Shown: positions 1-52,496, counted from the stretch's first letter. The stretch: 64,000 bases of DNA from Verrucomicrobiota bacterium (GCA_030830965.1 JAURLX010000018.1:1-64000); one strand, 5' to 3'. Numbers and translations: made by a program. The notes: generated by a model not told the origin, from the sequence alone.

Positions 1-3000
1 ACGCGGGACGTCCCCCGTGCCGTTGTAGTCGGCGAAGTCGACGCCGCCGTAGAAGACCTTCCTCTGCACCTTGCCGCTGAGGAAGTGCAGCTCGGCGACC
101 ATGGCGACGGCGTCACCGTGGGCGCCCCAGCCGCCGACGGCACCGAGGAAGTGGATGCGGTTGGCGACCGAGCCGATGGGTATCTCCACTTTCGACGGGA
201 AGGACTTAGAGTAAGCCCCTTTGAAGGCACCGCCCTTGAGCACGATCACGTTCAGGCCGTCCTTGGAATCCTTGGGGTCCACCACCTTGTAAGGGACGCC
301 ATTGGACTGGACCTGTCCGAACTGCGCGAAAGGCAGCGTGTCCCGCTTGGCCTCCTTGCTGGCGTAGAGCCCGGTCGTGGTCGAGGCGGTGAAGACCGGC
401 CCGAGGTCGAGCAGGCGGAACCGCCCGACCGTCACGCCCTCGGCGCGCACGGCGACGCTGCGGAGGTAGGCGATGACGTTGCGCAGGCCTTCGGCCCCAA
501 GGGACTCGAAGCCCTCGGGCATGAGCGAGTTCGGGGACTTGGCGCGCTCGGCGATGTCGGCGACCCTGAGCTCGGCGGACTGACCGCCCGGAAGCTTGAG
601 CTTCACGAAGGTCGGATTTTCGCTGGCGATGAGCGCTGAATACTGCGAGCCGTCCTTCATGCGGATGTTCCAGGTGCGGTGCTCGTCATCGACCATGCGG
701 TTGGGGTCGACGATATGCACGAGCATCTCGGCCGGAGGATGCGAACCGATGCCCTGCAGGTTGGGTCCGAACTCGTTGCCTTGGTCGCCGATCTTGTGGC
801 AGACGGCGCAGGCGGCCAGGAAGACTTCCTTGCCCTTGGCCATGTCGCCCGGCTTTTCGACCTCGGGACGGAGGCGGGACACGAGGTCGTCCTTGGCGGG
901 GCTGCTGCCGGCGTTGAGCTTGGCTAGGACGGCCTCGGCGCGCCTGGAGACGGCGGAGTCAGGATGACGGATGAGCTGCGAGGTCTGGAGGGGACCCAGC
1001 TGCATCGGGGAGATCGACCTGGCCTCCAGGGCGTTGAGCAGCAACGTGGCCCATTCGGCACGGCTCACGAGCGCGTTGAAGATGGCCGTACGCAGGAGTC
1101 CGGCGGACTTCGGGAAGGCGGCCGCGAGGACGGAGCCGTAGGAGAGGTCGCCGCTGGCGGAAAGGGCCTCGACGATCGCGCCTCCGACGGCGTCGGAAGC
1201 CGACCCTGAGAGGGCCGCGGTGAGAGCGGGACGGACCGAGGCGTCGGTGTTGCGCAGCGCAACGAGCGTACGGGCTGCGGACACGCGTGAATCGGCGGGG
1301 ACCGATGGGTCCGTGAGCGCCGGGATGAGACGCTTCACCAGCGGGGTCAGTTCGGCGTTCAAAGAACCATCGGTGATCCAAGAGGCCGCCACGGATGCGG
1401 CGGAAGAGGCGACCGATGCGTCGGCGGAAAGGAGTCGACGGAAAGCATCGCGGACGGAACCGAGGTCGGACGGCGCCGCGATGCGACGCAGGGCGATCTC
1501 GCGCAGAAGCGCGGAGACCAGCGTCGCGTCCTTGGAGCCGGCGGCGGCACGGACGACCTTGGCGGCGGCGTCGGGAGAAAGCGTGGCGGCGAGGGAGACG
1601 GCGAATTCGACCTTGGCCGGCGCCTTGCCGGCGAGCATCACCTCCAGCGTCGAGGCGGGATTGGCCGAAGCGGCAGCCGTGGCGGCGGCGGCTTCATGGG
1701 CGTTGGCCCAGGTCGACAGCAGGAGCGATCCCGCTTCGGCGTCGAACTCGGCGGCGCCCATCGCCCGGAGCGCGGCAAGACGTACGCGGTCATCCGGGTC
1801 GGTCACGCCGGCGCGGAGGGCGGCGGCGGGCAGGCTGATGCGTCCGGCCTCGGCGACGAGGAAGGCGTTCTTGCGCACGGCGGCGGAAGCGTCCGTGGCC
1901 ATGGTGGCGAGCAGACCGGGCTCCAGTCGGTCGAGCCGTTGGAGCGCCCACAGGGCCAGCACACGGGCCTCAGGCAGGCCATTGGAACGGGCCAGGGCGT
2001 TGAGGGGGCCGGTGGCGGAGGCCTGCAGCCCGGCATCACGCTCCATGAGCGAGCGCATCGCGTTGAATCGGACGACCTTGTTGGGATGGCTGAAGGCGGC
2101 GACGAGAGCGCCGACGTCGGTCTTGGAGAGGTCGGGATGCGAGAGCGTCTTGGCCTCGTCATGCTGAATCCGCCAGATGCGTCCGAAATAGTGCTCACGG
2201 TCGGGGCGGACGGAGGCGCCCGACTTTGAATGTAGCGGACCGCGGGTGTCGTTGTGGGCGACGACGGGTGTGTAGAAGTCGAGGACGTAGAGCGCGCCAT
2301 CGGGGCCGAACTGCAACGCAATGGGACAGAACCAGTGGTCCATGGAACGCAGCCACTCCCGGTCCTTCAGCAGGAGCTCTCCGGTGAACGTGCCGCCGCC
2401 GGGGACGAGCCTCTCGTGGTGGATGATGTCGAGGATCGGTTCCGTGATGAAGATCGTGTCGCGGTAGGCGTCGGGCCAGGCTCCGTGCTCCTGCACCGTC
2501 ACCGCGCAGGCGGCGGTGTAGAATCCGACCTGGTCGATCTGCAGCAGCGGAGCGCGATCGGGCAGGTCGGCGCGGATGACGGGTCGGCGCGGGTTGACCG
2601 CGTTGAAGGCCTTGGCGGGCGTGCCCGGGGCCTTGGCGAGGATGGATTCCGGCAGCACGACGTGCTGGATCGGGTTACCGTTGGTGGCCTTGCCATGGTA
2701 GAGCTCCATGTCGGAGGTCACCTCATTGCCGAAACTGTTGCCGCCCTGGGAGGCGATCTGCTCGATGGCGGAGCCGTCGGGACGGAAGCGGAAGGTCCCG
2801 GGGGACAGACGGACCTTGCGCTCAGGAGCGGAAGCCGGGAAGACCTCGCCGCCGCCGCCGTTGCTGGCGTAGACCCAGCCGTCGGGGGCCAGGATAAAGT
2901 GATTGGCGACGAAGTGCGTGTCGCCGGGCGTGAAGCCGCCGTAGAGCACCTGCTCCTTGTCCGCCTTGCCGTCGCCGTCGGTGTCGCGGAGCCAGACGAT

Positions 3001-44699: not shown

Positions 44700-45974
44700 G
44701 ACCGGCATCGCCTTGTTGCCGATCATCATCGGACGGCCGCTCGGCGTCATGATCTCCGTGCCGACCGGGAGTCCGGCGGCATGGGCCACGGTCGCATGGA
44801 AAGACCCGACAGTGACCGGGTCCCTGTCCACCCCATGGCCCTTGGCATCGCTGGCCCCGTGGACGAAACCGCGCTTCACGCCGGCGCCGGCCAGGACGGT
44901 GGAGAAGACCAGCGGGTGATGGCCTCGGCCGCCGCCCTCGAAGCTGGGTTTACGGCCGAACTCGGTGGTGACGGCGACCAGGGTCGTGTCCAGCATGCCC
45001 TTGGATTCGAGATCCTCGATCAGGGCGGCGAAGGCGGCGTCGAACTCGGCCCCCACGTCCTCCATCTTGTCCTCGAGCGTGGCGTGCATGTCCCAACCGC
45101 CGCTGCGGACCTCGACGAAGCGCACGCCGTGTTCCACGAGCCTGCGGGCCAGCAGGCACCCCTGCGCGAACTTGTCGGCCCCGTACTTGGCGCGCACGGC
45201 CTTGGGCTCGGCGCTGATGTCGAAGGCCTTGAGGTCACGGCTGCGCATCAGCTCGAAGGTCGAGGCGTAGAAATCGTTGTAGGCCTGGACGTTGGTGTCC
45301 GCGACAGTCGCGCCGAACCCGCGGTCCAGCTCGGCCAGGAGACTGGCGCGCTTCTCCTGCGCCCCGGTGGCCCCGACTCCGGACGTGTTGGGCAAGCCGG
45401 CCGAAGGGTCCAGGATCGGCAGCGGCGCATGGGAGGCGGAGAACCATCCGTTGCCCTGGTTGGACGGGCGGTTGACGCAGACGCTGGCGGGCAGGGTCTG
45501 GCTGCTGCGGCCGAGGAAGTGCTGAGCCCAGGCGCCAAAATTGGGGTGCTGGATGACGCCGCGCTGCTCGAAGCCCGTACGCATCAGGTACTGGGCGGAA
45601 GCGTGGACGCCCACCTTGGCCGTCATGGAGCGGATGACGCAGATCTTGTCCGAGATCTTCGCGGTGTTGGGCAGGAAGGAGGTGACCTGGAACCCGGCCT
45701 TGGTGGATACGGCGGAACCAGGGCCCTTCGAGGCCCCGACCTTGGGGTCGAATGTGTCGATGTGCGACATCCCGCCCGAAAGCTCGAGGAAGATGACGTT
45801 CTTGGCTTTTCCGAAGCCCGGGAGATTGGCCGTGGGCGCCTTGACGGCGGTCTCGGCCGCGCCCCCCAGGGCGGGCAGGACGGTGAGGCCGAAGGCCATC
45901 GTCGCCGCCTTCTCGAGGAAGGCGCGGCGATCTTCGACGTTACGGAGACGGTCGGCGAATTCGTGGAGGCTCAT
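44682..45974 (-). CDS. DUF1501 domain protein (sulfatase-fold)
   Basis: 430 aa; VIFLELSGGMSHIDTFDPK, EFGRKPSFEGGGRGHHPLVFSTVLAGAGVKRG. Confidence 0.92.
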   Translation of the reverse strand: MSLHEFADRLRNVEDRRAFLEKAATMAFGLTVLPALGGAAETAVKAPTANLPGFGKAKNVIFLELSGGMSHIDTFDPKVGASKGPGSAVSTKAGFQVTSFLPNTAKISDKICVIRSMTAKVGVHASAQYLMRTGFEQRGVIQHPNFGAWAQHFLGRSSQTLPASVCVNRPSNQGNGWFSASHAPLPILDPSAGLPNTSGVGATGAQEKRASLLAELDRGFGATVADTNVQAYNDFYASTFELMRSRDLKAFDISAEPKAVRAKYGADKFAQGCLLARRLVEHGVRFVEVRSGGWDMHATLEDKMEDVGAEFDAAFAALIEDLESKGMLDTTLVAVTTEFGRKPSFEGGGRGHHPLVFSTVLAGAGVKRGFVHGASDAKGHGVDRDPVTVGSFHATVAHAAGLPVGTEIMTPSGRPMMIGNKAMPVSAVLA

Positions 45975-48103
45975 CAGCGTATGAAAAGGAACTCGCGGGT
46001 GTTGGCCAGGGTCCAGGCCAGGTCGGTCAGGGCAAGGCCCTCGCCGAGGGCCTTCTGGGCGGCGGTGGCCTCGGCCGGCGTGGGGTTGCGAGCAAGGAAG
46101 GAGAGGTAGAGGGAGCGCACCTGCGCGGCGGGCCCGGATTCCTTCGTGGCGTTCAGCACCGCATGGCTCTTGGCGTCGGTCAGGAGCCGTGCCACGGGCC
46201 CGTTCATGAGCTGCAGGACCTGCGGCACGCTGCCGTCCACGGTGGAGGAGTTGGAGAGCATCCGGTCGCCCTGGCCGAAGACCCGGAGGAAATGCGTCTC
46301 CGCGGCCGGCTGCGGAAGCTCGCTGGCGCGCGCCAGGAGGAGCCCCTGCCGGGTCTGGGGCTTCTCGCCTTCGTAGCCGGTGCTGAGCCCGGCCTCGCTG
46401 CCGCCACCGCTCTTCTTGGCCGTGGCCTTGCCTTTCATGCCTCGCATCTGGTCGGCGGCCTGGCGGACCAGCGCGACCGTGACCTTGCCTTCCGGCAGGG
46501 TGAGCGGCTTGAGGTTATCGCCGCGACGCAGGAGGATGTTGTCGGCGGACGGGCCGACGGCGGCCACGACCACGCTGTCCCATACCTGCTCCGCGGTGAG
46601 CCGCCGCACGATCGGGCCGTTGAAGAGATAGGGCCCCTTGGAGAGGTCCGGCATGGGCGAGGCGGCGCTCTGGTAGGTGCGTGAATTGAACACCACCCGC
46701 TGGAACTCACGCAGGTCGAACCGAGCGGCCCGCATGACCTGGGTGAGGTGGGCAAGTAGCTGGGGGTTGCTGGCCGCAGACATGTCGTCGATGTCGTCCA
46801 CGGGCTCCTTGACCGCCATGCCGAAGACCTTCCTCCACACCCGGTTGGCGATGTTGGTCGCGAAACGGGGGTTGTCAGGGCTGGTCAGCCAGCGGGCGAA
46901 CTGGTCGCGGAGCTGCGCGGGCGACTTGGTGTCGACGGCGTAGGACTGCCGGCGCGCGTCACCCTCGTCCCAGTGGATGAGGGAGGGCTTGACGGACTCC
47001 CCGGGCTTAGCGTCCTCGTACTTGTAGTCCTTCGGAAAAGTCAGCCGGTTCCGGTCGGTATCGGCCAGGCGGAGGGCGTTCATCTCGCCGATCAGGCGCA
47101 CGAAGTTCTTGTTCAGCCCGGAGTCCGCGCGGGAGAGCTTGCGGATCTCCCCGAGCATGGACTCGTTCTTCATGTCGGTGGCCCCGAGGAAGGCCGCCAT
47201 CTCGTAGAACTGCCGCTGCGACCAGTCGGCAAGAGGGTGGTCATGGCACTGCGCACAGGACATGTTGGACCCCAGGAAGGTCGTGATGAGGTTGGAGACC
47301 CCGTCCAAGGGCATGTCGGCGTCGAAGAGCAGGAAACCGGCCGCACCCGTGTCGAGCATCCGTCCGTCCGCGGTGATCATCTCCTTGACCATCACGTCCC
47401 AGGTGGCGTTGGCCCCGATGCGGGCCTTCAGCCAGTCTTCGAAGGTGAAGGCGGGCAGGCGCTTGCCCAGGATGTCCTTCGCCCGCAGGAGGTCCGCCAT
47501 CCAGTTGTACATCTGGAGCGAATAGCCGGGGGACTGGAGCAGCCGATCGATCAGTCGCTCCCGACGGTCGGCGGACGCGTCCGCAAGGAAGGCCGAGGCC
47601 TCCTCCGCGGTCGGCGTGCGCCCGATCGCGTCGACATAGATCCGCTTGAGGAACTCCTCGTCGGTCGCGGGTCGGTTGGGCTTCTGGCCGTCGGCGAGAA
47701 GGCGCGCCTCGACCACCCGGTCGATGTCGGCCGCGGCGGCCGACACGACGGCGCGGGAGAAGCCGCCCTTCTGCTGGCCGGCGCAGGCCTTGGCGAACTC
47801 ACGGTCCTCAGGGGTGAGAATGGCGAGGCTGAAGCGGTAGTTGCGGGAATCCCGGGTCTGCAGGGAGATGATGTCTCCCGACAATCCGCAGAACATGGCC
47901 TCGACCTTCCGACCCTGCTCATCGGTCCAGACGTGCCAGATCTGAGGCCGATCCTCGAGCGGACGCACGGGGGTGGTGACGACGGGCTGCACCTTGACGG
48001 GGGCGGCCGCGGCCTTGGTGGCCTTCTTCTTGGGCGCGGCAGGCAGGACAGCTGCCGACAAGACCACGGTAAGAACGCTCAGTACCAGTGCCCGGGGTGT
48101 CAT
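45974..48103 (-). CDS. SHD1-like + DUF1549 / DUF1553 domain protein
   Basis: ATG at 48103 with signal peptide; IWHVWTDEQGRKVEAMFCGLSGDIISLQTRDSRNYRFSLAILTPEDREFA (SHD1-like), FLKRIYVDAIGRTPTAEEASAFL, SCAQCHDHPLADWSQRQFYEMAAF, IANRVWRKVFGMAV. Confidence 0.9.
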   Translation of the reverse strand: MTPRALVLSVLTVVLSAAVLPAAPKKKATKAAAAPVKVQPVVTTPVRPLEDRPQIWHVWTDEQGRKVEAMFCGLSGDIISLQTRDSRNYRFSLAILTPEDREFAKACAGQQKGGFSRAVVSAAAADIDRVVEARLLADGQKPNRPATDEEFLKRIYVDAIGRTPTAEEASAFLADASADRRERLIDRLLQSPGYSLQMYNWMADLLRAKDILGKRLPAFTFEDWLKARIGANATWDVMVKEMITADGRMLDTGAAGFLLFDADMPLDGVSNLITTFLGSNMSCAQCHDHPLADWSQRQFYEMAAFLGATDMKNESMLGEIRKLSRADSGLNKNFVRLIGEMNALRLADTDRNRLTFPKDYKYEDAKPGESVKPSLIHWDEGDARRQSYAVDTKSPAQLRDQFARWLTSPDNPRFATNIANRVWRKVFGMAVKEPVDDIDDMSAASNPQLLAHLTQVMRAARFDLREFQRVVFNSRTYQSAASPMPDLSKGPYLFNGPIVRRLTAEQVWDSVVVAAVGPSADNILLRRGDNLKPLTLPEGKVTVALVRQAADQMRGMKGKATAKKSGGGSEAGLSTGYEGEKPQTRQGLLLARASELPQPAAETHFLRVFGQGDRMLSNSSTVDGSVPQVLQLMNGPVARLLTDAKSHAVLNATKESGPAAQVRSLYLSFLARNPTPAEATAAQKALGEGLALTDLAWTLANTREFLFIR

Positions 48104-48201
48104 GTATGTATAACACCATAGAAGAGGGGGTGGTTGCACTTGGAAAATGCCCCCCCTGCTTGCATCCCTCCCCCTCTCCTGTCAGAACGAAAGCCCCTCT
48201 C

Positions 48202-50583
48202 ATGAACCCGCTTGCCAACCTGCGCCCGCCAGGCGTGGCCCTCAAAGCGGGCCAAAAGGCCTTCCGCGCCCTCGGAATCGACCTCGGGACGACCAACTCC
48301 ACCCTCGCCCAGGTCCGCTGGTCACCCCTGAGCCCGGACGAAGTCGACCCCGCCGAGTGCGTCGAAATCGTCCAGCCCACCCTCTCAGGCGACCACACGT
48401 CCGTCCTGGTGCCCTCAGTCGTGGCTCGGCTGCAGGACCGGGAGCTGATCGGCGAGGGCGCCCGGCGCACCCTCACGCGGGCCGTCGAACTGGGACTTCG
48501 TCCCAACGCGAACTACCTCGCGGAAGTGAAGAACGAGATCGGCACCGGCCGGATCTACCCGCAGGCCCCCGATGACGCCCGCTCACCCGCCGAGGTCTCC
48601 GCGAAGGTGCTCAGGTTCATCCGCGCGCAGGCCCGGGGCGCCGTGGCGCGCACGGTGGTGTCGGTGCCCGCCTCTTTCCAGATCGGCCAGCGCAACGACA
48701 CCCTCCTGGCCGCCGAGATGGCGGGCCTCAAGCTCGGCCCGGGCGACCTGATCGACGAGCCCATCGCCGCCTTCATCGACTTCCTCGCCCGCCAGGGCCC
48801 CGCCGTCCTGGACGGCGTGGAGGACGAGACCGAGGCGCTCATCATCGATTTCGGAGGCGGCACCTGCGACGTCGCGCTGTTCACGCTCGGCCGGCAGAAG
48901 GACGGCGGCCTGAAGGTCAGCCCCCGGGCGGTCTCACGCTACCACCGGCTGGGAGGAGCCGACATCGACCGCGCGATCGTGCACGGCCTGCTCATCCCGC
49001 AGCTCGCCGTCCAGAACGGGCTACAGGCCGAGGACTGGGAGTACGAGGTGCGCAAGGAGCAGCTGGAGCCCCAGCTCCTCGCGACGGCCGAGCAGCTGAA
49101 GGTGGGGATGTGCGAGCACCTCAACCATCGGCTGGCGCTCGGTGAGAAGCTCGACGAGGCCCTGCCCGAAGCCGTGCGGGCCTACCCCGGCATCCAGACG
49201 ATGCTGCTCGAGGACGGGCGGCGCCTCCGCTTCTCACAACCCACCATGACGGGCGAGGAGTTCGCGGCGGTGATGGAGCCCTTCCTCGACACGGAGCATT
49301 TCCAGACGCGGGAGGACGAGTACACGCTCTCCTGCTCGATCTTCGCGCCGATCGAGGACGCGCTCGAACGTGCGGGGCTACGGCCCGGCCAGATCGGGTT
49401 CCTCCTCGCGGTCGGCGGGAGCTCGTTGAACCCGATGGTGATTGAAGCGCTCCGGGAGAAGTTCGGCGAGTTCCTCGTGCATCGCTTCGAGAGCGCGATG
49501 GATATGCAGGTCGCCGTCGCGCGCGGCGCCGCCTACCACGCGCTGCTGCTGGAGCTCTACGGACGGGGCCTGTTTACGCCCGTCGCCAGCGACCGTCTCT
49601 GCATCCAGACCGACGGCGGACCGCACACGCTGATCGAGAAGGGGCAAGCGCTGCCGCACAAGGGACGCTATGTCTCCGGAAGGGGACGTCGACTCGTCGC
49701 GCAGGGAGGCCCGGTGCGGATATCCTTCATCGCCGGCCAGGGACTCTCGGCGCGGCCGGTCTTCACGGGCCTGACGGAGGACGTCGAGGCTGGCACCCCG
49801 CTGACGCTTGAATACGAGCTCGACGCCAATCAGGGCTTCACCTTCCGGGTGACACCCGGCGACGACCGGCCCTTCGAGGGAAGGGTCGAATCGCCGCTCC
49901 ACAACGTGGTCAATCCCGGCAGGGACCGCGAGGCGATCCTCGAGATCGAACGGGACGTACGCGCCGGACTGGTCCCCCGAGACCGCCTCCCCGTCACGCT
50001 GATCGAACTCGCCCTGCTGCACGGCAAGGTCGGCATGCATGACAAGGCCGTCCATCTGCTGCGCAGGGTGGTCCGGCAGTGTCCGGAGATGCGCGCCAAC
50101 GCCCTCTGCCACCTCGCCGCGGCCTTCGGCCGCAAGGGCGACGCCGAGAGACAGGAGCGCACGTTCCTCGAGGCGATGATGGCGGGCAGCCCCATCGCGA
50201 TGTTCAACCTGGCCGCGCTCTACTCGCGCAAAGGGCGCTGGCACGAGGCGATCGAGCTCTGCCGACGCTACGAGGCGGAGGAACCGAACGCCAACGCGAC
50301 GGTGCTGCTGGCACGCTGCCTGAAGGCGGTCGGGGAGACCGAGGAGGCCGACGCCGCGCTGGCCGACGCTTTCCACCGATACGGGAGGGACCTCTCGGCC
50401 CTGGACGACGTGAGCTTCTCGTGGTTCCAGACCGCGGCGGCGATGTCGGAGGAGCCGGTGCGCATGCGTCAGGCCGAAGCCGAGAAGATGCGCCGGATCC
50501 GGGCGGGACTCGGGGTCCGGCCCGACACGCGCGGGCTGCCGCCCAGACTGCTACCCGACCCACAGGAGGACCGTAAGGGTTGA
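48202..50583 (+). CDS. Hsp70 family (DnaK-like ATPase) protein with C-terminal TPR-like region
   Basis: RALGIDLGTTNSTLAQVRW, VSVPASFQIGQRNDTLLAAEMAGL, ALIIDFGGGTCDVALFTLG, LLAVGGSSLNPMVIEALREKFG; C-terminal helical repeats (MFNLAALYSRKGRWHEAIELCRRYEAEEPNANATVLLARCLKAVGE). ATG at 48202 preferred. Confidence 0.9.
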   Translation: MNPLANLRPPGVALKAGQKAFRALGIDLGTTNSTLAQVRWSPLSPDEVDPAECVEIVQPTLSGDHTSVLVPSVVARLQDRELIGEGARRTLTRAVELGLRPNANYLAEVKNEIGTGRIYPQAPDDARSPAEVSAKVLRFIRAQARGAVARTVVSVPASFQIGQRNDTLLAAEMAGLKLGPGDLIDEPIAAFIDFLARQGPAVLDGVEDETEALIIDFGGGTCDVALFTLGRQKDGGLKVSPRAVSRYHRLGGADIDRAIVHGLLIPQLAVQNGLQAEDWEYEVRKEQLEPQLLATAEQLKVGMCEHLNHRLALGEKLDEALPEAVRAYPGIQTMLLEDGRRLRFSQPTMTGEEFAAVMEPFLDTEHFQTREDEYTLSCSIFAPIEDALERAGLRPGQIGFLLAVGGSSLNPMVIEALREKFGEFLVHRFESAMDMQVAVARGAAYHALLLELYGRGLFTPVASDRLCIQTDGGPHTLIEKGQALPHKGRYVSGRGRRLVAQGGPVRISFIAGQGLSARPVFTGLTEDVEAGTPLTLEYELDANQGFTFRVTPGDDRPFEGRVESPLHNVVNPGRDREAILEIERDVRAGLVPRDRLPVTLIELALLHGKVGMHDKAVHLLRRVVRQCPEMRANALCHLAAAFGRKGDAERQERTFLEAMMAGSPIAMFNLAALYSRKGRWHEAIELCRRYEAEEPNANATVLLARCLKAVGETEEADAALADAFHRYGRDLSALDDVSFSWFQTAAAMSEEPVRMRQAEAEKMRRIRAGLGVRPDTRGLPPRLLPDPQEDRKG

Positions 50584-51794
50584 TCTGGCTCACTCCAGCC
50601 GACCGGCTCACGGCCGTCCAGTCGGCGGCCGTGCGCGCCCCGACGGCCGCCCCGCTGGTGCTGCGAGGCGGGCCGGGCTCGGGCAAGACGGTGGTGATAC
50701 TGCACCGCGCCCGACATCTCACGGACGCCCCGGGCGCGGGCCCCGTCAAGGTGCTGGTGTACACCAACGTCCTACGCGACTTCATCCGCTCGGCGGTCGA
50801 GGATCTGCGGCTCGACGCGGGTTCGGTGCTGACTTTCGACCACTGGTGCCGACTGGAGCACGAACGTCTCATCGGCGATCCGCCGCTCGACGCCAAGGGC
50901 TTCCCCGATTTCCTGAGAATACGCGGAGACCTGCTCCGCCGCATGCGTCGCGCCCGCGCGGAGCCGGCGCTGGAGGCGGTGCTGGTCGACGAGGGCCAGG
51001 ACCTCGACGCCGATTGCTACGCGCTGCTTCAACTGGCCGCACGGCACGTAACGGTGGCCTTCGACTCTAGGCAGGCGATCTACCGTGACGCGGGGTCCGA
51101 TGACATCCCGGCGACGCTCGGAGGCCGGGCCGCCCAGATCGACCTCACTTCGACCTACCGGGCGTGTCCTTTCGTGGTCGACCTTGCCTGCGGCTTCATT
51201 GAGGACCCGACGCAGCGGGAGGTCTTCCGCAGCCAGGCCGCCACCGTGCAGGAGGAGAGGCAGACGCCCCTACTCTACCGAGCTGCCGACGAAGACGATG
51301 AACGTAGGCGCCTGGTGGAGGTGCTGCGCGAGCGGCTTCACCGCAACGAAAGAGTGGCCATCCTCTTCCCGACGCTGCGACAGGTGAAGGACTACGCGGC
51401 GTTCCTCCGCACGGAAGGCATCCTGGCATCACGCCAGCCCGAGACCGACCGCCAGGGGCGCAGGCCATCGATGGATTTCGAAGGCGGCCGGCCGGCCGTG
51501 CTCACTTTCCATAGCGCCAAAGGGCTGACCTTCGACAGCGTGCTCATCCCCGGCCTGTCGACCAGCGCGCTCAGGGCCGCCCGGGATGCCGCGGGACGCA
51601 TGCTCTTCGTGGCCGTCACACGGGCGACGCGCTGGGTCTACATGAGCGGACCTTCCGGCAGAATCGACGGGAGGGTCGACGCCGCCTTCGCCGCCTTGGT
51701 CGCTCGCCGCCGCGGCACGGTGCAATCCCGCGCCGACGCGCCCCCGACGCCAGGTCAGGGCGCCCGCCGCCGCGACGACCTCACCGACATCTGA
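50580..51794 (+). CDS. compact UvrD/Rep-like superfamily 1 helicase
   Basis: TTG start overlapping the Hsp70 stop (TTGA); VLRGGPGSGKTVVILHRA (Walker A), VLVDEGQDLDADCYALLQLA (DEGQD), VLTFHSAKGLTFDSVLIPGL, RMLFVAVTRATRWVYM. Confidence 0.85.
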   Translation: MIWLTPADRLTAVQSAAVRAPTAAPLVLRGGPGSGKTVVILHRARHLTDAPGAGPVKVLVYTNVLRDFIRSAVEDLRLDAGSVLTFDHWCRLEHERLIGDPPLDAKGFPDFLRIRGDLLRRMRRARAEPALEAVLVDEGQDLDADCYALLQLAARHVTVAFDSRQAIYRDAGSDDIPATLGGRAAQIDLTSTYRACPFVVDLACGFIEDPTQREVFRSQAATVQEERQTPLLYRAADEDDERRRLVEVLRERLHRNERVAILFPTLRQVKDYAAFLRTEGILASRQPETDRQGRRPSMDFEGGRPAVLTFHSAKGLTFDSVLIPGLSTSALRAARDAAGRMLFVAVTRATRWVYMSGPSGRIDGRVDAAFAALVARRRGTVQSRADAPPTPGQGARRRDDLTDI

Positions 51795-52496
51795 TCAGGC
51801 CCCGAGGAGCGCGGCGAGGGCGCAGTGCAGCCAGAACCACGCGGCCGGCAGCAGCGAGAGCAACGCGGTGACGCAGCCGGAAACGATCATCCCCGGGACG
51901 CCCAGCAGGAGCACGCGGCCGAAGCCGGGGCGGTGGGCCTCGCAGAGCGTCACGGCGAGGTGCACGGTCACGGCGATGCGAATCAGCGGAAGGCCGGAGA
52001 ACAGTAGGACGAACTTCACGGCGAGCCCCCAGTCCAGGGCGATGACGACCAACACGAAGGCGATGCTCAGTGCTTCGGCGACCAGCCGGTTGAAGGCGAA
52101 GACGCGGAAGGTCTCGCGCCAGCCGCCGGCAGCTCCACCGGTGACGCTGAGCGCGGCCTGGGTGAACAAGGCGCCGAGCAGGGTCATGGCCAAGGGGACG
52201 ATGACTCCGAACAGGAGGCCCCATCCCGACGTGAAGACCCTGGCCATGTCGGTCTGCGGGCGCACGAACTTGTCGGTGAAGAATGCGGCGAGTTTCGAGG
52301 CCGGGGCGTTCAGCTCCTGCGGCGCGAGCTCCGTCAATCGTCGCTCCATCTCCTGCAGCCCGCGTCCGGCCGCCTCGGCCACAGGGTCGTTCGACTGCCA
52401 GAGGTAGAGGCCCGCGACGAGCACCGAACCCAGGGCGGCCCAGGTGACTAGCCAGGCCCAGGCGGACCTGGCTGACGGATCGTGGGTCGTACTCAT
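51795..52496 (-). CDS. hypothetical membrane protein (Yip1-like topology)
   Basis: Several predicted TM stretches: WAWLVTWAALGSVLVAGLYLW, LLFGVIVPLAMTLLGALFTQAALSV, ALSIAFVLVVIALDWGLAVKFVLLFSGLPLIRIAVTV. Family call weak. Confidence 0.65.
   Translation of the reverse strand: MSTTHDPSARSAWAWLVTWAALGSVLVAGLYLWQSNDPVAEAAGRGLQEMERRLTELAPQELNAPASKLAAFFTDKFVRPQTDMARVFTSGWGLLFGVIVPLAMTLLGALFTQAALSVTGGAAGGWRETFRVFAFNRLVAEALSIAFVLVVIALDWGLAVKFVLLFSGLPLIRIAVTVHLAVTLCEAHRPGFGRVLLLGVPGMIVSGCVTALLSLLPAAWFWLHCALAALLGA

Follow-up and report, generated by a model that had tools for sequence, protein, structure and literature searches.

An Hsp70-TPR protein and a compact SF1 helicase encoded by a conserved, overlapping gene pair: a candidate antiphage module

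The window analysed here is a stretch of 64,000 nucleotides from a Verrucomicrobiota bacterium (contig C16 of a 1.8 Mb assembly that is 87% complete), whose close relatives carry Opitutae or Verrucomicrobia labels. It holds two overlapping genes on the plus strand, one encoding an Hsp70-type protein with a TPR tail and the other a compact UvrD-like SF1 helicase (Table 1). An earlier note, made from the sequence alone, had drawn this unit. We recovered both reading frames at the same positions, with the TTGA overlap between them and with neighbours pointing the other way, as it had described: a PSD1 gene lies divergently on one side and a 247-aa ORF, with no Pfam family, lies convergently on the other, both on the minus strand. 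The Hsp70 frame is open upstream as far as a GTG at 48088, and relatives support the ATG at 48202 as the predicted start. A promoter scan found no match to the sigma-70 consensus in the divergent intergenic region, and the putative Shine-Dalgarno of the helicase is less clear in some PVC relatives than in the window. The helicase and the convergent ORF meet tail to tail within a TGATCA palindrome (51792-51797), which supplies both stop codons. A third gene in the unit was considered and rejected: downstream of the helicase comes the convergent ORF, with which its stop shares this palindrome.

Table 1. Features of the gene pair and its surroundings in the window, and kinase cassettes in other records.
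Feature	Position	Strand	Evidence
Hsp70-TPR protein, 793 aa	48202..50583	+	Pfam HSP70 and TPR, DnaK profile match, AF2, dN/dS
Hsp70-TPR domains	NBD, residues ~22-455; SBD-beta-like, ~460-565; TPR helices, ~573-767		
Compact UvrD-like SF1 helicase, 404 aa, TTG start, without 1B/2B	50580..51794	+	Pfam, PcrA profile match
TTGA stop/start overlap linking the Hsp70 and helicase genes	50580..50583	+	
Putative Shine-Dalgarno AGGAGG ahead of the helicase TTG	50566..50571	+	Read from sequence
Divergent intergenic region between the pair and PSD1, presumed operon promoter	48140..48201	.	Gene orientation
Flanking PSD1/DUF1549-DUF1553 gene, outside the unit, marks the fixed site	45974..48139	-	Pfam
Kinase cassettes (IMG/VR, viral/proviral contigs)	L095:6555-10558; L092:3084-7091; L096:6595-10492		
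Kinase cassette	L068:7666-11662		

The first protein matches the Pfam HSP70 family (E=9e-24) and also exceeds the cut-off of several TPR models. The Hsp70 motifs that had been noticed before are all in place (IDLGTTNS at residues 26-33, DFGGGTCDVA at 216-225 and VGGSSLNP at 404-411), and with its phosphate 1, phosphate 2 and adenosine motifs and its catalytic Lys, Glu, Asp and Thr the NBD belongs to the Hsp70 superfamily. Residues D27, K110, E186, D216, T221, G405 and S407 are invariant (n=9, from Verrucomicrobiota, other PVC bacteria, Bacteroidota and Alphaproteobacteria), and the predicted ATPase site is shown to be intact. The family profile aligns with the DnaK NBD and continues through SBD-beta to profile position 600, with the TPR-like helices (Pfam, AF2) at the position of the DnaK lid. 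The protein is not an equivalog of DnaK or HscA, scoring 85.8 bits against 822.55 for prok_dnaK and 81.4 against 708.55 for HscA.

The second protein matches Pfam UvrD-helicase (E=4e-11) and UvrD_C (E=5e-10). The helicase motifs read before by eye are present (Walker A GGPGSGKT, DEGQD, motif V HSAKGLTFD and motif VI VAVTRAT), and motor motifs I, II, III, IV, V and VI are kept in ten pairs, as in SF1A motors of the UvrD/PcrA/Rep type. By sequence, the predicted ATPase site of the helicase, like that of the Hsp70, is intact. The helicase profile aligns best to PcrA/UvrD (PcrA, E=6.5e-33). The earlier remark that there is little room for the 1B and 2B insertions agrees with the PcrA alignment, which skips ~80 residues of 1B and ~180 of 2B; the window helicase thus lacks the SF1A accessory domains. 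AF2 models of the two proteins were built from six-row alignments and have low confidence (pLDDT 67 and 57, pTM 0.44 and 0.38), so we draw only fold-level statements from them. Confidence in the Hsp70 model is low in the SBD, the TPR tail being helical and mostly at pLDDT 70-93. Foldseek led from the Hsp70 model to DnaK and from the helicase model to PcrA/UvrD/Rep and GajB.

The helicase is present in 15 of the 55 genomes of the genus and the Hsp70 gene adjoins it in all 15; in a sixteenth genome, the Hsp70 gene is truncated by the contig end. Every non-truncated ortholog of either gene adjoins its partner, both in the genus and in four distant PVC genomes (L041, L042, L044 and L066), where the helicases are 33-40% and the Hsp70 proteins 35-37% identical. 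This answers the earlier call for a neighbourhood comparison across PVC genomes in favour of a conserved pair. All 19 PVC pairs have a 4-nt NTGA overlap in the same register, with the helicase start codon at the same position (7 TTG, 2 GTG, 10 ATG). The conservation of this position while the codon itself varies indicates a start that is used, together with translational coupling, and it settles in favour of the TTG a point on which the earlier note had made its proposal depend. Co-transcription of the two genes is strongly implied by the overlap. The pair is rare in a sample of the phylum: five of 388 genomes had a match, three of which are pair carriers. Beyond PVC bacteria, its spread is documented by two plasmid records. 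One is from Persicobacter (Bacteroidota), found with the helicase query (Hsp70 of 785 aa, helicase of 388 aa and a 596-aa protein), and the other from Antarctobacter (Alphaproteobacteria), found with the Hsp70 query (959, 387 and 456 aa, respectively), where the cassette is flanked by IS elements. No Hsp70-helicase pair on viral contigs was among the matches listed. Judged by this distribution of homologous sequences, the pair is an ancient unit that extends from freshwater Verrucomicrobiota to the plasmids of unrelated bacteria.

In all informative carriers of the genus, the pair occupies one chromosomal site, divergent from the PSD1/DUF1549 gene, with flanks that are metabolic or uncharacterised and no recognised defence genes adjoining it. 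Seven sister genomes have the flanks without the pair: four with the flanks joined directly and three (L084, L086, L087) with a ~360-aa gene (cluster 19) in the slot beside PSD1. The slot is thus variable, since the cluster 19 gene replaces the pair in these three genomes. Carriers and non-carriers are interspersed in the tree of the flanking genes, which implies repeated loss or reacquisition via recombination at the site. The dS of the pair is close to that of PSD1 beside it, and inheritance within the genus is mostly vertical. Both genes are shown by their dN/dS estimates (0.11-0.18 for Hsp70, 0.12-0.26 for the helicase) to be under purifying selection. Two PSD1 orthologs beside the site (G018:C15:8279-10435 and G041:C5:576186-578336) have one in-frame stop each (TAG and TAA, respectively) in the search output, which may be due to gene decay, to an error in sequencing or to the edge of an alignment.

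The neighbourhoods of the distant pairs are of another kind. In L041, a HamA gene (E=7e-53) and a helicase gene lie directly downstream of the pair and a DprA-like gene upstream. In L042, the pair is preceded by AbiEi/AbiEii and followed by NERD, REase-ARP and an AAA_5 ATPase. In L044, it occurs with a TaqI_C/MmeI-type gene and with a PLD-SNF2 helicase whose end is 5 nt upstream of Hsp70; SIR2_2 lies downstream. The TaqI_C/MmeI-type gene, the PLD-SNF2 helicase, Hsp70 and the compact helicase form one tight run (L044:54-8401), which suggests that the pair can join a larger restriction-like operon. These three contexts, together with the plasmids L069 and L070, are locations expected of a candidate defence module, the window genus being the exception; they are individual loci, read singly and without statistical control. 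In Antarctobacter, the N-terminus of the Hsp70 protein resembles a Swt1-like HEPN domain with an RNRHAH motif (E=0.0015, below cut-off). The first gene of the L080 cassette has a HEPN near its start (RNKYFH), and the two HEPN regions match each other pairwise at E=2e-5; matches to the HEPN models reach 19-22 bits, against a Pfam cut-off of 27.5.

Relatives of the compact helicase (~345-420 aa) also adjoin other proteins, namely Ser/Thr kinases, a HEPN-methyltransferase (L080) and an ADP-ribosyltransferase (L081). The kinases occur in three-gene cassettes with a helicase of 384-394 aa and a conserved third protein of ~460 aa, for which no Pfam or PADLOC family was found, and no PHROGs family for the two that were searched. 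The cassette kinases match PADLOC PD-T4-6 and mad6, both labelled as antiphage kinases. The cassettes seem to represent a further subtype of this system, with a kinase as partner. The helicase tree has a clade of PVC Hsp70-linked helicases (support 0.99) and a kinase-linked clade (1.00). Homology between third genes is confined to subtypes (L092, L095, L096 and L068; L080 and L094), and the third genes of Persicobacter and Antarctobacter show none to each other. No whole-cassette PADLOC model was found for the kinase or HEPN cassettes. The HEPN-helicase cassettes lie at L080:3110-7876 (minus strand) and L094:381-4612 (plus strand). The former starts with a HEPN (Swt1-like)-SAM methyltransferase-like protein whose gene overlaps (ATGA) that of a 353-aa helicase; after these comes a 715-aa protein that shares homology (26%, 5e-45) with the third gene in the latter cassette. 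Cas_NE0113 and AbiEii genes adjoin the L080 cassette. At both L080:2119-3123 (minus strand) and L081:9363-10361 (plus strand), the gene immediately after the helicase cassette encodes a DUF1848 protein, despite the differing cassettes.

We favour the reading that the pair is a two-component module, conserved and coupled in translation, and most likely directed against phages or other mobile elements, to which we give, from its genomic context, a probability of roughly 0.6. The argument is that helicase-centred immune systems typically keep one motor and exchange the switch or effector that goes with it. The earlier note had proposed that the ATPase and the helicase act together, in nucleoprotein remodelling, stress response or phage defence. 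As a statement about one unit this is strongly supported (cross-phylum pairing, overlap, purifying selection); as a statement about function it holds in part. Of the three functions, phage defence gains from the distant neighbourhoods and from the HEPN, kinase and ADP-ribosyltransferase partners, and loses from the lack of a defence gene next to the window pair. In a defence module, the Hsp70-TPR protein would be the sensor or switch, with SBD-beta and the TPRs binding a protein signal of infection. It would then change shape on ATP hydrolysis and cause the helicase to be loaded or released. The helicase would act as a minimal translocase, not expected to open long duplexes by itself, and would strip or remodel phage nucleoprotein, namely complexes of replication, transcription or repair. 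A fused or linked effector, e.g., a HEPN RNase, might boost the response in relatives. No nuclease or toxin domain was found in the two-gene form, in which either the motor or a nuclease of the host could serve as effector.

Other readings have to be weighed against this one. That Hsp70 and helicase genes are common superfamilies is the sole point in favour of a chance adjacency, which we reject as scarcely credible given the perfect co-occurrence, the overlap in 19 of 19 pairs and the separate recovery on plasmids of two other phyla. The chief rival is a non-essential role in the remodelling of nucleoprotein complexes under stress, possible but, on balance, unlikely, in which the Hsp70-TPR protein would load or remove the helicase at stalled replication or transcription complexes and have no part in immunity. 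It is comparable in logic to HelD and HelR, which clear RNA polymerase, and fits the fixed site, the vertical inheritance, a dN/dS (~0.11-0.26) similar to that of the flanking gene, NCBIfam matches to PcrA/UvrD and HelD and the lack of defence genes beside the window pair. It also counts against defence that in the window genus the pair sits outside defence islands, between housekeeping-type flanks, evolves at its neighbour's rate and is mostly inherited vertically, unlike many defence genes with their fast turnover. A housekeeping role is harder to reconcile with the absence of the pair from most members of the genus and nearly all of the phylum sample, which indicates that it is dispensable, with its presence on plasmids, once beside IS elements, and with the defence neighbours and RNase-type fusion of its relatives.

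The pair could also act on RNA, sensing aberrant or viral RNA-protein complexes with an SF1 motor that moves on RNA, by analogy with the Hsp70-like parts of Type III-A CoCoNuT, which are predicted RNA binders (PMC11090510). The HEPN RNase-like domain fused to the Antarctobacter Hsp70 and the scores of SF1 RNA helicase models (Viral_helicase1, SLFN-g3) on the helicase family point this way. We nevertheless regard RNA surveillance as improbable, more so than the stress remodeller, as the best structural relatives of the helicase are the DNA translocases PcrA and UvrD, and the ATPase motifs that are degenerate in CoCoNuT Hsp70s are intact in the window family.

Returning to the defence module, it is probably an immune module not yet described in PADLOC or in open-access papers. 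More tentatively, it could represent a new class of immune system, in which a constant compact SF1 motor is combined with a swappable partner (Hsp70, sometimes HEPN-fused, Ser/Thr kinase, HEPN-methyltransferase or ADP-ribosyltransferase) and often with a lineage-specific third gene, the Hsp70-type infection sensor being an ATP-hydrolysing, non-degenerate chaperone that gates the motor. Chaperones are known to affect how phages are sensed, as in a study that links DnaJ with bNACHT25 (PMC12169576). If true, an active Hsp70 tied to a helicase of its own would couple protein-state sensing to a nucleic-acid motor in a new manner. The swappable partners would also provide a search rule, a compact SF1 motor with an adjacent switch protein, which recovers the kinase and HEPN cassettes.

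The earlier note knew of no named system with this architecture, and none was found in PADLOC or in the open-access papers searched; in the latter, a search for Hsp70-helicase defence pairs turned up only CoCoNuTs and GTPase systems. The window Hsp70 has no match in PADLOC 2.0. It shares with DnaK and HscA a full NBD with catalytic residues and, putatively, an SBD-beta-like domain, and differs from them in having predicted TPRs in place of the helical lid and no DnaJ or GrpE adjoining. Among PADLOC models, the window helicase best matches the UvrD part of C3a187 (NERD+UvrD, 4e-20), GajB is also matched, and the Nhi model matches the L041 and plasmid helicases; hits of this kind to defence models are common to UvrD-like motors in general. 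In C3a187 and Nhi a nuclease is fused to the helicase, whereas the window helicase has no fused nuclease. Gabija also has a UvrD-like SF1 motor in a two-gene operon, with profile similarity via PADLOC and PDB, but GajB models are mostly ~500-625 aa, against 404 aa in the window, and the partner is the ATPase-nuclease GajA instead of Hsp70. We rejected membership in Gabija because there is no GajA (ATPase-TOPRIM nuclease) nearby and no full-length GajB. The likeness to MADS lies in mad6, which matches the kinases found in place of Hsp70 in the sister cassettes, and in mad8, which weakly matches the compact helicases. MADS comprises more genes, among them genes for methylation; the window unit has two genes, no kinase or methyltransferase and no mad profile among the matches listed for it, and membership was rejected. 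Hsp70 is also found with GTPase/tubulin conflict systems (PMC7159879). Type III-A CoCoNuT combines an Hsp70-like CnuCD unit with the SF1 helicase CnuH in a predicted defence operon, and its Hsp70-like part has degenerate ATPase motifs and is fused to McrC (PMC11090510). Membership in it was rejected, since no McrB NxD GTPase and no CnuC/CnuH coiled-coil proteins adjoin the pair. CoCoNuT further differs in being built around the McrB GTPase and coiled-coils with a UPF1-like CnuH that carries helical insertions, whereas the window helicase is compact and UvrD-like.
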